Assembly: GCA_014360825.1 (NCBI GenBank)
Contig: JACIWT010000014.1
Span: 1-60,830 of the forward strand
DNA length: 60,830 bases
From: Chloroflexota bacterium
GTDB taxonomy: Bacteria; Chloroflexota; Anaerolineae; UBA2200; JACIWT01
Direction: 5' to 3'
The translations under genes were made by a program, and so were the position numbers. Positions 26,702-44,420 of the stretch are shown piece by piece; the first letter of the stretch is position 1, and the number at the start of each line of letters is the position of its first letter. Under the pieces are notes generated by a model. The model saw only the letters and a list, made by a program, of their open reading frames with translations. It made no database searches and was not told the origin of the DNA.

Positions 26702-27679
26702 CTATTGAGCCATGATTTCGGCTAGATTGTACAAGTTTAGGTCGGGCATACGCTTTTGAGCCACCACCTCGTCAATCGGCGTAGTCACGATTTTATTAGA
26801 TATTAGGCCGACCATCACGCCGCTTTTGCCTTCGCGCAAAGCATCCACTGCCGCCGCGCCCAGACGTGTGGCTAAGAGCCGGTCAAACGCCGACGGTGAG
26901 CCACCGCGCTGTACGTGACCCAGAATTGTCACCCGCACTTCGAAGCCGGTCTCTTCATGGTGCTCGCGCAGATAATCGGCAATGGCGGTGGCGTTGTATC
27001 TTGCGCCCTCGGCCACGGAGATGATGCAATGTGCCTTGCCACGCAAGTAGGCCTCATTGAGTGTGCGGGCGACATCTTCCAGTTCGAAGGGCACCTCGGG
27101 GATACAGATCATCTCTGCGCCGCCTACGATGCCAGCAATTAAGGCCAGATATCCACAGTCGCGGCCCATAATCTCCACCAAAAACGCCCGTTGATGGGAG
27201 GAGGCGGTATCTTTGATGCGATCGATGGCTTCCAGTGCGGTATTGAGCGCAGTGTCGACACCGATAGCAATATCCGTTCCACAAAGGTCGTTGTCGATCG
27301 TACCCGGCACGCCGACCACCTTGATGCCCAGGTCATGGAGGAGCTTCGCCCCGCGTAAACTGCCATCGCCGCCGATGACCACGAGGCCATCAATCCCCGC
27401 CTCGTTCAGATGACGGACAGCCTGGACCTGGCCTTTCTTGGTCATGAACTCGGGGCAGCGGGAGGTACCCAGAAAGGTGCCGCCACGACCAATGATGCCG
27501 CCTACTGAACGAGCATTGAGGGGGATCATTTCGTTGTAAACCATCCCCATGTATCCCCGCTTGATGCCCACGACTTCGAGCCCGTGGTGGAGAGCATTCC
27601 GTACTACTGCGCGGATGCAGGGGTTCAGTCCCGGGCCATCGCCACCGCTGGTCAATACTCCGATCCTGTTAACGCTCAT
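26702..27679 (-). CDS. pfkA: ATP-dependent 6-phosphofructokinase
   Basis: Phosphorylates fructose 6-phosphate. The N-terminal motif is [12 protein letters not shown], a variant of the usual TSGGDAPGMN. The donor-site positions that separate ATP from pyrophosphate enzymes read GGDGSLRGA and PGTIDND (Gly, not Asp/Lys), which favours ATP. The effector/substrate region [10 protein letters not shown] is also present. Three consecutive starts (GTG 27685, ATG 27682, ATG 27679) follow GGAGG; ATG 27679 has the best spacing (6 nt). At about 325 residues the length is normal. It lies 29 nt after pgk in the glycolytic run. Confidence 0.9.
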
Positions 27680-40251: not shown

Positions 40252-40950
40252 ATGTGGTGGTTCTATCATCTGGCAAATGCAGTTTTAGGCATCTTGTTCC
40301 GCTTGCTCCTGGACGTGCATGTCACTGGGGTGGAGAATGTCCCACGTCATGGTCCGTTTATTGTTATTATGAATCATCTTTATTTTCTCGACCCGGTGCT
40401 GGTGGCGGGTTACGTCCCCCGAGAGATTGTCATGATGAGCAAGGTGGAGAACTTCTTCAACCCGCTCTTCGCGTTAATCATTACCCTTTATGGCGCATTC
40501 CCAATTCGCCGGGGAGAGGTGGACCGCCGGGCACTACGTCGTTCCGTCGAAGCGCTCAAGTCTGGGAGAGGATTACTCATTTCGCCGGAAGGTACGCGCA
40601 GCAAGGTCACACGGGCCTTGCAAGAAGGAAAGGACGGCACCGCTCTTTTGGCTCTTAAAACTGGCGCGCCAATTCTCCCCGTTGCTCTATCGGGCCAGGA
40701 ACACTTCCTCACCAACCTCCGACGTTTGCGCCGAACACCTGTCCGTATTGCCATCGGCCGTCCTTTCCGATTACGTCCACCAAACACCAAACTGGAACGC
40801 CATCATTTGCACGAAATGACCCAGGAGATCATGTACATCCTCTCCGCACTTTTGCCGCCTCGCTACCGCGGCGTCTACGCAGATTTGGAGAAGGCTACTA
40901 CGCAGTACATTGAATTCCTCACCGCCCCAGCCGAGGGTGGAATCACTTGA
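40252..40950 (+). CDS. plsC: 1-acyl-sn-glycerol-3-phosphate acyltransferase (PlsC family), second
   Basis: A 232-residue paralogue of the preceding gene with canonical motifs: NHLYFLD (about 41-47), the acceptor-binding SPEGTRSK and APILPVALSG. There is a hydrophobic N-terminal segment (about 5-22). Both end with a similar tail (ALLPPRYRGVY and ALLPPEYRGVY), so they probably arose by duplication. The last four bases overlap the TTG start of the DUF512 gene. Confidence 0.9.
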   Translation: MWWFYHLANAVLGILFRLLLDVHVTGVENVPRHGPFIVIMNHLYFLDPVLVAGYVPREIVMMSKVENFFNPLFALIITLYGAFPIRRGEVDRRALRRSVEALKSGRGLLISPEGTRSKVTRALQEGKDGTALLALKTGAPILPVALSGQEHFLTNLRRLRRTPVRIAIGRPFRLRPPNTKLERHHLHEMTQEIMYILSALLPPRYRGVYADLEKATTQYIEFLTAPAEGGIT

Positions 40951-42239
40951 GCATCCAGGGCATCGGGGTCATCGCCAATGTAGAGTCGGAAAGCATTGCA
41001 GCAAGGGCTGGATTGCGTTCCGGTGACCACATAGTCATGGTCAATGGCCGCTCCCCGCGTGACGTAGTGGACTTCCAGTTCTATGCCGCCGAAGAGGAAG
41101 TCGAGTTCCTAGTGTCGCGCGGTGATGAACGGCTTACTATCAAGTTCCAACGGCCTTATGGAGAGGACTTAGGCATCGCTTTCACCGAGGACTTGTTCGA
41201 TGGCATACGCCGCTGCAACAATCGCTGCGAGTTTTGCTTTCTCCATCAAATGCCGCCGAACTTGCGCCCCTCCCTGTGTGTTAACGATGACGACTACCGC
41301 CTCTCTTTCCTCTACGGCAATTTTATTACTCTGACCAACCTGACCGAAGCGGACTGGGAGCGGCTGGCTGAACAGCGCCTCAGCCCGCTCTATGTTTCCG
41401 TACACGCCACAGATCCCGAACTACGTCGACGCCTTCTACGCAACTTTGCTGCACCTGATATCTGCGAGCAAATCCGTCGCCTGGGCACACTGGGCATTGA
41501 GGTGCATGCCCAGGTGGTAGTGATTTCAGGTGTGAATGACGGTCCGGCGCTGGTCCAGACGGTAAACGAACTGGCGGCGCTTTACCCTACTGTGCAGTCT
41601 ATCGCTTTGGTGCCGGTGGGTCTGACCCGCTATCACCCTCGTGATCTGCGCGCTCTCACGCCCAGAGAGGCTGCTTTTATCGTGGATCATTTCTCGTCGG
41701 TGCAGCGACGATTTCGCCGTACTCATGGCCTGGGCCTCCTCTATTTTTCCGATGAGTTCTATTTGTTAGCGGGCCTGCCTATGCCCCCAAGCAAAGAATA
41801 TGATGGCTATCCCCAATTGAAGAACGGCGTCGGGCTCACCCGGCTCTTGCTAGATGACTGGGACAAGGCTCAGGAAGAGCTGCGTGGTGTAAGGGTTCCT
41901 TACAGTTGCATGACCCTGGTCTGTGGGGCGCTCATCGCCCCCATTTTGACCCAATTGGCGGTAGAATGCAGCGATCTGATAGGGGCGCAAGTGAGAGTCC
42001 TACCGGTGATAAACCAGGCGTTGGGGGAGACGGTGACGGTATCGGGTCTCCTATTTGGTAAAGACGTAGTATCGGCCCTACAGGCTCAAGCCCTGGGTCA
42101 GGTAGTGATCCTGCCCCGCGTAATGTTCGATGCTGCGGGCGAGCGGACCCTCGACGATCTCACTGTGGATGTCCTGGCCGAGCGGGTGAACGCTCGGGTT
42201 GCCCTGGCGGATATGCTCTCGGAAGTCGCCTATCTCTGA
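40947..42239 (+). CDS. PDZ-domain radical-SAM protein (DUF512 family)
   Basis: A 430-residue protein with an N-terminal PDZ-like domain (VESESIAARAGLRSGDHIVM in outline, about 12-65), then a CxxxCxxC cluster (Cys 90, 94, 97 in CNNRCEFC) as in radical-SAM enzymes, and the C-terminal DUF512 domain (about 225-430) with YCSDEFY-like YFSDEFYLLAGLPMP. The family is common in Firmicutes, Cyanobacteria and Chloroflexi; its reaction is unknown. Translation is coupled to plsC (TTGA overlap). Neither der nor plsY, frequent partners elsewhere, is in the window. Confidence 0.88.
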   Translation: MSIQGIGVIANVESESIAARAGLRSGDHIVMVNGRSPRDVVDFQFYAAEEEVEFLVSRGDERLTIKFQRPYGEDLGIAFTEDLFDGIRRCNNRCEFCFLHQMPPNLRPSLCVNDDDYRLSFLYGNFITLTNLTEADWERLAEQRLSPLYVSVHATDPELRRRLLRNFAAPDICEQIRRLGTLGIEVHAQVVVISGVNDGPALVQTVNELAALYPTVQSIALVPVGLTRYHPRDLRALTPREAAFIVDHFSSVQRRFRRTHGLGLLYFSDEFYLLAGLPMPPSKEYDGYPQLKNGVGLTRLLLDDWDKAQEELRGVRVPYSCMTLVCGALIAPILTQLAVECSDLIGAQVRVLPVINQALGETVTVSGLLFGKDVVSALQAQALGQVVILPRVMFDAAGERTLDDLTVDVLAERVNARVALADMLSEVAYL

Positions 42240-42578
42240 GCGGCGCGTTTTCATCTAGATTTCATCTAATTATGCTACTATATTGCTTGTCAAGGAGGTG
42301 AGGCTACCTGAGAAAATAACTAGTGCTGGGAGGATTGAAGCGCACGGACTGCTCTTCGGGGCAGTTGACGAGGTGGAGGTTCCCTACCGCAGGGTGGGGT
42401 TAATCCCGGCGATACCATCGTCGGGAGAAAATCGAGTGGTCAGCGGAAGCCTCCGGGGATGGCCGCATCCCCCCTTACCTCCGGGTTTAAAGCCCCTCCA
42501 CAACGCCCCCGGGCGACCGGCGGGACAAAAGAGAGTGCGGCGGCAAACCGAAAAACTATCCCCAAGGAGGTCATTTCC
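42240..42578 (+). promoter_or_regulatory. glmS leader region (339 nt)
   Basis: The stretch between the DUF512 stop and the glmS start. Its first 60 bases are A/T-rich and include TATATT at 42279-42284 as a possible -10 without a good -35. The glmS ribozyme fills 42339-42545, and the SD AAGGAGG lies at 42564-42570. The open frames through this region are not considered genes. Confidence 0.6.
42339..42545 (+). ncRNA. glmS ribozyme: glmS ribozyme (glucosamine-6-phosphate-activated), diverged, with an insertion in P2
   Basis: The 5' leader of glmS contains the landmarks of the self-cleaving glmS ribozyme in order. The cleavage-site context is A42339/GCGC. P1 is ACTGC (42349-42353) with GCAGT (42361-42365), followed directly by the signature GTTGACGAGG (42364-42373). 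P2 is GGAGG (42375-42379) with CCTCC (42450-42454), and inside it AATCGAG and CAGCGGAAGC match the conserved ATCGA and CGGCGGATGC. P3 is GCCGCA (42462-42467) with TGCGGC. P4 carries the same GCGA tetraloop as the Thermoanaerobacter ribozyme (GGCGAC, 42511-42516), followed by CAAAAGAGAG (42526-42535). Unlike the consensus, about 45 nt with two hairpins are inserted between the 5' strand of P2 and AATCGAG, and the residue five after cleavage is A rather than C. The fit is by eye. Confidence 0.85.
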
Positions 42579-44420
42579 ATGTGCGGCATCGTTGGCTACA
42601 TAGGGCCGCGCCAGGCGTCATCCCTGATTCTGGAAAGTCTGCGTCGGCTGGAATACCGCGGCTACGACTCAGCGGGCATTGCCACCCTTGCTGAAGGGCG
42701 TATCGCTCTTCGTCGCTGTGTGGGCAAATTAGATGGCCTTGCTCACATTCTCTCTATCCAACCCCTCTCTGGCACTGTGGGCATTGGCCACACACGTTGG
42801 GCTACTCATGGAGATGTGACGGAAGCAAACGCTCACCCCCACACTGATTGCACAGGCCAGATCGTGGTGGTCCACAATGGCATTGTGGAAAATTGTGGCG
42901 AGTTAAAAGAGGCTCTTCGTATTAAAGGGCATGTTTTCCGCTCGCAAACCGACACCGAGGTCATTGCACATCTCATCGAAGAGCACTACTCTGTTACCGC
43001 TGACCTGGTGGCCGCTACCCGCGCTGCCTGTCTTGAACTCAAAGGAGCGAATGCTATCGTTGTGCTCAGCACTATCGCCCCTGACCGGCTGATCGCTGCT
43101 CGCCTAGGTAATGCTGGGGCCATAGTCATCGGTTATGGTCAAGGCGAAATGTTTGTGTCCTCCGACATCCCCGCTATACTGGATTACACGCAGCGGATGG
43201 CCTTCCTCGACCATGGTGATGTGGCGCTCGTCAGTGCGGAGAGCGTGGCTTACGAAAACCTGAGAGGGGAGGCAGTGAGTAAGGAAATTCACACCATTCC
43301 TTGGGATCCCATCTCGGCGGCGAAAGGCGGCTACAAACACTTCATGCTCAAGGAAATACATGAGCAGCCTCGCTCCGTGGCCGATGCTATTCGGGGCCGA
43401 TTAGACTTGGATAGACATCGCGTGGTGCTGAACGACTTCCCTTTCACCGAGGAGATGTTGCGCGGCGTGGAGCGCATCTACACTGTAGCCTGTGGGACAG
43501 CCTGGCACGCAGCACTCGTGGGTAAATTTCTCATCGAGGGCCTCGCTGGGCTGCCGGTGGAAGTAGACTATGGCTCCGAGTTCCGCTATCGCAATCCACT
43601 TCTCCTGAAAAACTCATTGCTCTTGGCCATTACTCAGTCGGGCGAAACGGTGGACACCTTGGCGGCGATGGAAGAGGCCCGAGGAAGAAATATCCCCACC
43701 ATCGCAGTCGTTAATGTGGTGGGTAGCCAGGCGGCCCGGCTGGCTGATGGAGTGCTCTACCTGAACGCTGGACCGGAGATCGGTGTGGCTTCCACCAAGG
43801 CTTTCACCTCCATGCTAGTAGCACAGTACTTGTTCGCCCTCTACCTGGGCCAATTGCGCGGCGTCATCTCCTCAGATCAAACGAAGCGGTATGTGCAGGA
43901 TCTGGTCGAATTGCCAAACCTGATTGGCCGCGTGCTCGAAAACGGGGATAACTACGAGGCACTGGCGCAGACGTACTTCGAGCGCGCTCATTTTCTCTAC
44001 CTCGGGCGGGGTATCAACTACCCCATTGCTCTAGAGGGAGCGCTGAAGTTAAAAGAAATCTCGTATATCCATGCCGAAGGCTACCCCGCTGGGGAGATGA
44101 AACACGGGCCTATTGCGTTGATCGACAAGAACATGCCAGTGGTGGCCATAGTGGTGCGCGATCGAGTACATGATAAAATGGTTAGCAACGTGGAGCAAGT
44201 GAAAGCCCGAGGCGGCACCGTGATCGCAATTGCCAACGAGGGCGACGACAAAGTAGCGGAGAAAGCCGATCACGTCATCTGGGTGCCGGAGACTTCGCCT
44301 TGGCTCACGCCAGTATTGACAGTGTTGCCACTGCAGTTATTGGCCTACCACATTGCGGTGCGACGCGGTTGCGATGTGGATCAGCCGCGAAACCTGGCCA
44401 AAAGTGTGACTGTGGAGTAG
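42579..44420 (+). CDS. glmS: Glutamine-fructose-6-phosphate aminotransferase (isomerizing)
   Basis: Makes glucosamine 6-phosphate, the first step to UDP-GlcNAc. The start must be ATG 42579, because the glutaminase nucleophile is the Cys directly after Met (MCGIVGYIG); AAGGAGG is 8 nt upstream. The N-terminal glutaminase domain has RWATHGDVTEANAHPH and HNGIVENCGELK. Two SIS sugar-isomerase domains follow (VACGTAWHAALVGK, SQSGETVD-like TQSGETVDTLAA, and GRGINYPIALEGALKLKE). It ends with NLAKSVTVE, the standard C-terminus. At 613 residues the length is normal. Feedback control by its product through the leader ribozyme is expected. Confidence 0.97.
   Translation: MCGIVGYIGPRQASSLILESLRRLEYRGYDSAGIATLAEGRIALRRCVGKLDGLAHILSIQPLSGTVGIGHTRWATHGDVTEANAHPHTDCTGQIVVVHNGIVENCGELKEALRIKGHVFRSQTDTEVIAHLIEEHYSVTADLVAATRAACLELKGANAIVVLSTIAPDRLIAARLGNAGAIVIGYGQGEMFVSSDIPAILDYTQRMAFLDHGDVALVSAESVAYENLRGEAVSKEIHTIPWDPISAAKGGYKHFMLKEIHEQPRSVADAIRGRLDLDRHRVVLNDFPFTEEMLRGVERIYTVACGTAWHAALVGKFLIEGLAGLPVEVDYGSEFRYRNPLLLKNSLLLAITQSGETVDTLAAMEEARGRNIPTIAVVNVVGSQAARLADGVLYLNAGPEIGVASTKAFTSMLVAQYLFALYLGQLRGVISSDQTKRYVQDLVELPNLIGRVLENGDNYEALAQTYFERAHFLYLGRGINYPIALEGALKLKEISYIHAEGYPAGEMKHGPIALIDKNMPVVAIVVRDRVHDKMVSNVEQVKARGGTVIAIANEGDDKVAEKADHVIWVPETSPWLTPVLTVLPLQLLAYHIAVRRGCDVDQPRNLAKSVTVE

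Follow-up and report, generated by a model that had tools for sequence, protein, structure and literature searches.

A predicted glmS ribozyme with a two-hairpin module beside its core pseudoknot in the leader of a Chloroflexota glmS gene

Is the RNA ahead of glmS in this Chloroflexota genome a functional ribozyme with an added peripheral element, or a ribozyme in decay? Ribozymes of the glmS class are the textbook example of a ribozyme with a metabolite cofactor, and the detailed pictures of them come from Gram-positive RNAs. The glmS product makes glucosamine 6-phosphate, and for this class the ligand, the cleavage chemistry and the subsequent decay by RNase J are known. An earlier note on the window, the whole stretch of 60,830 nt analysed here, had described a diverged glmS ribozyme at 42339-42545 and left both readings standing. 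The leader elements and the glmS gene described below lie on the forward strand. A local scan with the Rfam model RF00234 gave a full-length match at 42328-42548 (36.8 bits, E 3.2e-7) that covers all 167 model positions. The gene downstream (42579-44420, 613 aa) is glmS, encoding glutamine--fructose-6-phosphate aminotransferase (TIGR01135, 803.6 bits at a cut-off of 418). It is the single full copy in the genome, starts about 33 nt behind the ribozyme end (42545) and has the ribosome-binding site AAGGAGG at 42564-42570. The score of the ribozyme stays 0.2 bits under the RF00234 gathering score of 37, hence its absence from a window-wide Rfam scan at the gathering threshold, which listed three tRNAs only. 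In view of the local match we dropped this negative scan as counter-evidence. Since the window is among the 36 leaders that we aligned, we rebuilt the profile from the 35 relatives with the window sequence excluded, and it recovers 42339-42454 at E 5.8e-21. By homology and gene context, 42339-42545 is a member of the glmS ribozyme family RF00234 in a glmS leader, which upholds the assignment of the earlier note, although the match falls just short of the family threshold. A further match of the ribozyme model in the window (26728-26783) is weak, at chance level, and was discarded. No promoter passed a consensus scan. The upstream neighbouring gene (40947-42239) encodes a TIGR03279-like radical SAM/PDZ protein that scores under the family cut-off.

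Every motif named in the earlier note was located in the sequence, in the order and at the positions given there. Cleavage is predicted from the RF00234 alignment between A(-1) and G1 (42339/42340), within the context AGCGC (42339-42343). The core letters A/GCGC, GACGAGG (42367-42373), UCGA (42432-42435) and GCGGA (42443-42447) are intact in the window and invariant across the 36 diverse leaders of our MAFFT alignment, in which the window is included. The P1 hairpin ACUGCUC-UUCG-GGGCAGU occupies 42348-42365, and seven of its seven pairs are changed on both sides in relatives. From the same alignment, P2 is placed as GGAGG (42375-42379) with CCUCC (42450-42454), and the UCG at 42432-42434 as the 3' strand of P2.1, whose 5' strand is 42369-42371; P2.1 is 99.1% paired. 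In P2.2 the CGC of 42341-42343 faces GCG at 42443-42445, in three pairs that are invariant in 36 of 36 leaders, and a fourth pair is absent in the window. The segment 42442-42446 comprises A53 (42442), this 3' strand of P2.2 and the active-site G, roles taken from homologous residues (PMC11602151, PMC7125110). The double pseudoknot is present in this form; as P2.1 and P2.2 show no variation, they are consistent with a pseudoknot and give it no independent support. P3 (GGGGAU/AUCCCC, 42455-42472) carries in its loop the 5' strand of P3.1 (GCCGC, 42462-42466), at a position homologous to GCCAC/GUGGC in relatives, and the partner strand GCGGC lies at 42540-42544. This P3/P3.1 pseudoknot is found in the sequence, as is P4 (42506-42524, from the RF00234 alignment) with its GNRA loop GCGA (42513-42516) and the motif ACAAAAGAG at about 42525. 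P4.1 was placed by comparison with relatives (L050-L052, L068); its 5' strand (42492-42499) pairs poorly with the 3' strand (42532-42538), in about four of seven positions. Over the 36 leaders the whole structure is paired in 92.6% of cells, compared with 67.2% for shuffled sequences and 35-45% after sliding the partners. A minimum free energy (MFE) fold of the whole leader was set aside: it mispairs the core, because the pseudoknots are outside its model.

The most conspicuous departure from ordinary glmS ribozymes, in which about 3 nt (UUA) join the 5' strand of P2 to the 3' strand of P2.1, is an insertion of 52 nt at 42380-42431. It reads UU, hairpin 2a, UUAA, hairpin 2b and GAAAA. The earlier note had recognized an insertion of about 45 nt at about 42382-42427. 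Its existence is borne out, and it belongs to the linker that joins P2 to P2.1, not to P2. Hairpin 2a (CCCUACC-GCAG-GGUGGGG, 42382-42399) pairs 42382-42388 with 42393-42399. The stem CCCU/AGGG proposed before is out of register and was ruled out by the MFE fold and by the longer register CCCUACC/GGUGGGG that homologous stems keep. The second proposed stem is present, and we set its length at 10 bp: hairpin 2b (UCCCGGCGAU-ACC-AUCGUCGGGA, 42404-42426) pairs 42404-42413 with 42417-42426. Folded alone, the insertion reaches -28.4 kcal/mol, compared with -15.7 in shuffles (z -4.5, 0 of 200 shuffles as low), and its MFE structure consists of exactly these two hairpins. All seven pairs of 2a and all six outer pairs of 2b covary, with changes on both sides, in the 36 aligned leaders (13 of 13 tested insertion stem pairs), with 96% and 90% of cells paired, respectively. 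Around these variable stems the unpaired letters UU, CUAA/UUAA and GAAAA are conserved. We parsed 159 distinct leaders, nearly all from Chloroflexota, with the GlmS start visible in the available DNA for 140. About 120 of them have the two-hairpin module, in six a single hairpin is followed by GAAAA or a comparable tail, and 28 lack an insertion. The carriers include Anaerolineae, Caldilineae, Thermoflexia and Chloroflexia, and the window fits the subfamily pattern P2 - hairpin - (C/U/A)UAA - hairpin - GAAA - UCGA. The element is not rare within its lineage. From its covariation the insertion is a conserved module, not a defect.

A second peculiarity concerns P2.2. Canonically, C5 and G53 form a pair in this helix and position 6 bulges out. 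The window has A5 (42344), C6 (42345) and A53, and the earlier note was right to point out both adenines (the latter in CAGCGG). In the 159 leaders positions 5/53 are A/A in 89, C/G in 67, A/C in two and T/G in one, and intermediates of the type A5/G53 or C5/A53 do not occur among them. On a quick GlmS tree, parsimony requires at least 12 changes of this state. A test on independent pairs across well supported branches yielded three pairs, too few to reach significance, so the argument is drawn from the counts and the parsimony minimum of 12. On the lack of intermediates we rejected decay as the origin of A5/A53; judged by these leaders, it is a lineage-wide linked exchange. Among the leaders with A5, 60 have U at position 6, 15 have A and 14 have C, in each case facing A53, and two have G, facing C53. 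We suggest that the fourth layer of P2.2 is remodelled in this lineage, with A5 for C5 and A53 for G53, and that the bulge has probably shifted from position 6 to position 5, letting 6 pair with 53. Published double mutants show that the P2.2 bulge can shift (PMC7125110). The fit is imperfect for the window: C6/A53 is no standard pair, and thus its P2.2 has three clear pairs only. The same trio A5-C6-A53 occurs in 14 of the 159 leaders, the window and 13 others.

In relatives with the insertion, a further helix, P0, is formed between the leader at -16 to -2 and the linker between P3 and P4.1, for example GGAGAAGCA/UGCUUCUCC or GGGGAAGCG/CGCUUCCCC, and its end usually lies 1-2 nt ahead of A(-1). 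P0 has at least 7 bp in 80% of these relatives, compared with 42% when partners are swapped. Its mean score over 130 relatives lies at z 14.3 against swapped partners, and four control windows, three of them upstream and one downstream, gave z 0.2-0.6. In the window, GGAGG (42329-42333) could pair with CCUCC (42478-42482); this P0 is uncertain, because it has only 5 bp and ends 5 nt from A(-1). Some insertion-bearing leaders (L048, L057 and others) have a possible hairpin in the P3-P4.1 linker (such as CACGCU/AGCGUG) around the 3' strand of P0, with z 4.5 against swapped flanks, which, if formed, would compete with P0. Farther upstream lies a Shine-Dalgarno-like AAGGAGG (42292-42298), 7 nt after TATATT and without a start codon in place. 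GGAGG or AAGGAG is found at -75 to -22 in 90 of 129 insertion-bearing leaders, compared with 12.8 in shuffles, and in most insertion-bearing leaders no short open reading frame follows the site. In six leaders (L033, L042, L048, L050, L054, L057) it is followed by an AUG fused to a stop codon, and in others by a very short open reading frame just upstream of the ribozyme. We propose that the AAGGAGG may act as a 5' stabiliser. It resembles the STAB-SD of the cry3A mRNA, which likewise lies near the 5' end without directing translation (PMC4113751); the likeness is one of sequence. STAB-SD stabilisers block RNase J1 (PMC4113751).

Taken together, we consider a cis-acting, glucosamine 6-phosphate-dependent glmS ribozyme that exposes the glmS mRNA to RNase J, with the insertion bracing its pseudoknot, to be the best reading (probability roughly 0.85); what the sequence shows of it is homology, gene context, conservation and covariation. 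The P2-P2.1-P2.2 double pseudoknot would hold a preformed pocket that glucosamine 6-phosphate enters, to serve as the acid for cleavage between 42339 and 42340. The glmS mRNA would be left with a 5'-OH and would then be degraded by RNase J, and the outcome would be product feedback on GlmS. Cleavage would presumably also remove the protective Shine-Dalgarno-like 5' site. In B. subtilis RNase J1 degrades the cleaved glmS mRNA (PMC3997798), and the genome studied here encodes an RNase J family protein (612 bits, assigned from one family model). The two-hairpin insertion, in place of the linker of about 3 nt, could brace the pseudoknot from the periphery. Because of its position it is expected to protrude from the core at its P2/P3 end, pointing away from the active site. 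Self-cleavage of the window copy is likely: the core letters are complete, the insertion stems intact and glmS is in place, while P4.1 with about four of seven pairs and the short P0 argue against it.

Decay would mean that the window copy descends from an active glmS ribozyme and that cleavage is weak or lost here. The score under the Rfam gathering score, the missing standard pair among A5, C6 and A53, and a P4.1 and P0 weaker than in L050-L052 are in line with this. However, every core letter is kept, both insertion stems are intact, and the A5-C6-A53 trio recurs in other leaders, as described above. Mismatches in P4 and P4.1 are not deleterious in B. subtilis (PMC11602151), and the weaknesses of P4.1 and P0 are local and peripheral. 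We regard decay as improbable, and of the two readings offered by the earlier note the sequence evidence favours the first, a functional variant carrying an extra peripheral element, given the covarying insertion, intact core and adjacent glmS.

A slightly smaller chance is given to an insertion that does not brace the pseudoknot but modulates the ribozyme, as a second sensor or as a binding site for a protein. The conserved unpaired UU, CUAA/UUAA and GAAAA beside the variable stems would suit such a site, yet the stems differ freely in length and loop, and some leaders have only one hairpin, as expected of a structural module, and the short conserved letters resemble junction contacts. Least probable to us is a mainly translational control, in which P0 would hold the CCUCC before cleavage and the released CCUCC would cover the ribosome-binding site of glmS. 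P0 is supported across relatives, and GGAGGU (42566-42571) has its complement in ACCUCC (42477-42482). Both partners hardly vary, however, so that covariation cannot test this pairing, the P0 of the window has only 5 bp, and the B. subtilis glmS ribozyme works via mRNA decay (PMC3997798). We keep the ribozyme with a bracing insertion as the preferred reading.

Compared with glmS ribozymes of the Bacillus and Thermoanaerobacter type (RF00234), the window RNA shares the gene context, A/GCGC, P1, P2, P2.1 and the core letters, as well as P3, P3.1, P4 with its GNRA loop and the IL4 purines. It differs by the 52-nt two-hairpin module where that type has about 3 nt of linker, by A5/A53 in place of C5-G53 and by an additional strand, that of P0, between P3 and P4.1. 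A literature search on added stems in glmS ribozymes found nothing. McCown, Roth and Breaker (2011, RNA 17:728) reportedly described glmS variants from Deinococcus-Thermus with additional stems within the catalytic core. These stems are probably the same insertion, and this limits a claim of novelty.

With a model derived from the aligned Chloroflexota leaders, 67 of the 111 Deinococcota genomes gave a match at E up to 0.01, and the two-hairpin module is found in 28 of 28 distinct parsed Deinococcota leaders. The Thermus igniterrae glmS ribozyme (L180) bears the module and is among the matches listed by a pattern scan, whereas RF00234 at E up to 1 gave no match in this genome (G474). The Deinococcota ribozymes (L180, L283-L312) share with insertion-bearing ones of Chloroflexota the module, here with an AUAA-type middle linker and a GAAAGA tail, P0 (7 bp in most leaders) and A5. 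They differ in that stem 2a is shorter and lacks the GCRA-type loop, and position 6 forms a G6-C53 pair in place of U6-A53 or C6/A53 (A5, G6 and C53 in 27 of 28 leaders, in line with the shifted bulge). Within the Chloroflexota, 174 of the 298 genomes of the class have an RF00234 match at E up to 1, and the family is scattered across the phylum.

A match of the model derived from the Chloroflexota leaders was found outside glmS in 14 Anaerolineae genomes from two families. Four of these RNAs (L315, L327, L329, L331) precede a type I glutamine synthetase gene (TIGR00653, tested for L315). They lie at about 140-360 of their locus, have the two-hairpin module and the cleavage context AGCGGC, and two exceed the RF00234 gathering score (L331 with 47.7 bits, L329 with 42.9 bits). 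Nine others (L316-L319, L321, L323-L326) precede a gene with Ada/AraC and methylguanine-DNA methyltransferase domains (tested for L317), and most of these nine have a strong intrinsic-terminator-like hairpin behind them. The remaining one (L313, G096:C114:37992-38109) is a canonical-looking second copy (AGCGCAUGG), also followed by a terminator-like hairpin. The gene downstream of it looks glutamate-synthase-like by eye, and NCBIfam gave no assignment for it. At the cleavage site the 13 copies other than L313 read AGCGGC or AGCGAC, a sequence that could put position 4 in a bulge. Because several precede an intrinsic terminator, the non-glmS copies may be separate small RNAs or attenuators. Our literature searches returned no paper that combines glmS, ribozyme and Anaerolineae, and no title or abstract that links the glmS ribozyme to glutamine synthetase in bacteria. 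It is conceivable, though we hold it with considerable doubt, that Chloroflexota and Deinococcota share a distinct glmS subfamily, with the two-hairpin module, a moved P2.2 bulge and a P0 clamp upstream of the cleavage site. In it, cleavage would remove a ribosome-bound 5' stabiliser, and members would have been co-opted by other genes of Anaerolineae, glutamine synthetase among them, partly with G4 and a terminator. With its different core linker, P2.2 register and upstream helix, such a subfamily would offer natural experiments on which core contacts the ribozyme requires. Many members escape the current covariance model or score too low with it: among the 298 genomes of the class mentioned above, 177 match an insertion-aware model at E 1e-4 and 89 pass the RF00234 cut-off. 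A Chloroflexota-type glmS leader also occurs on a contig binned as Paludibacter (Bacteroidota; L138), probably a binning error.
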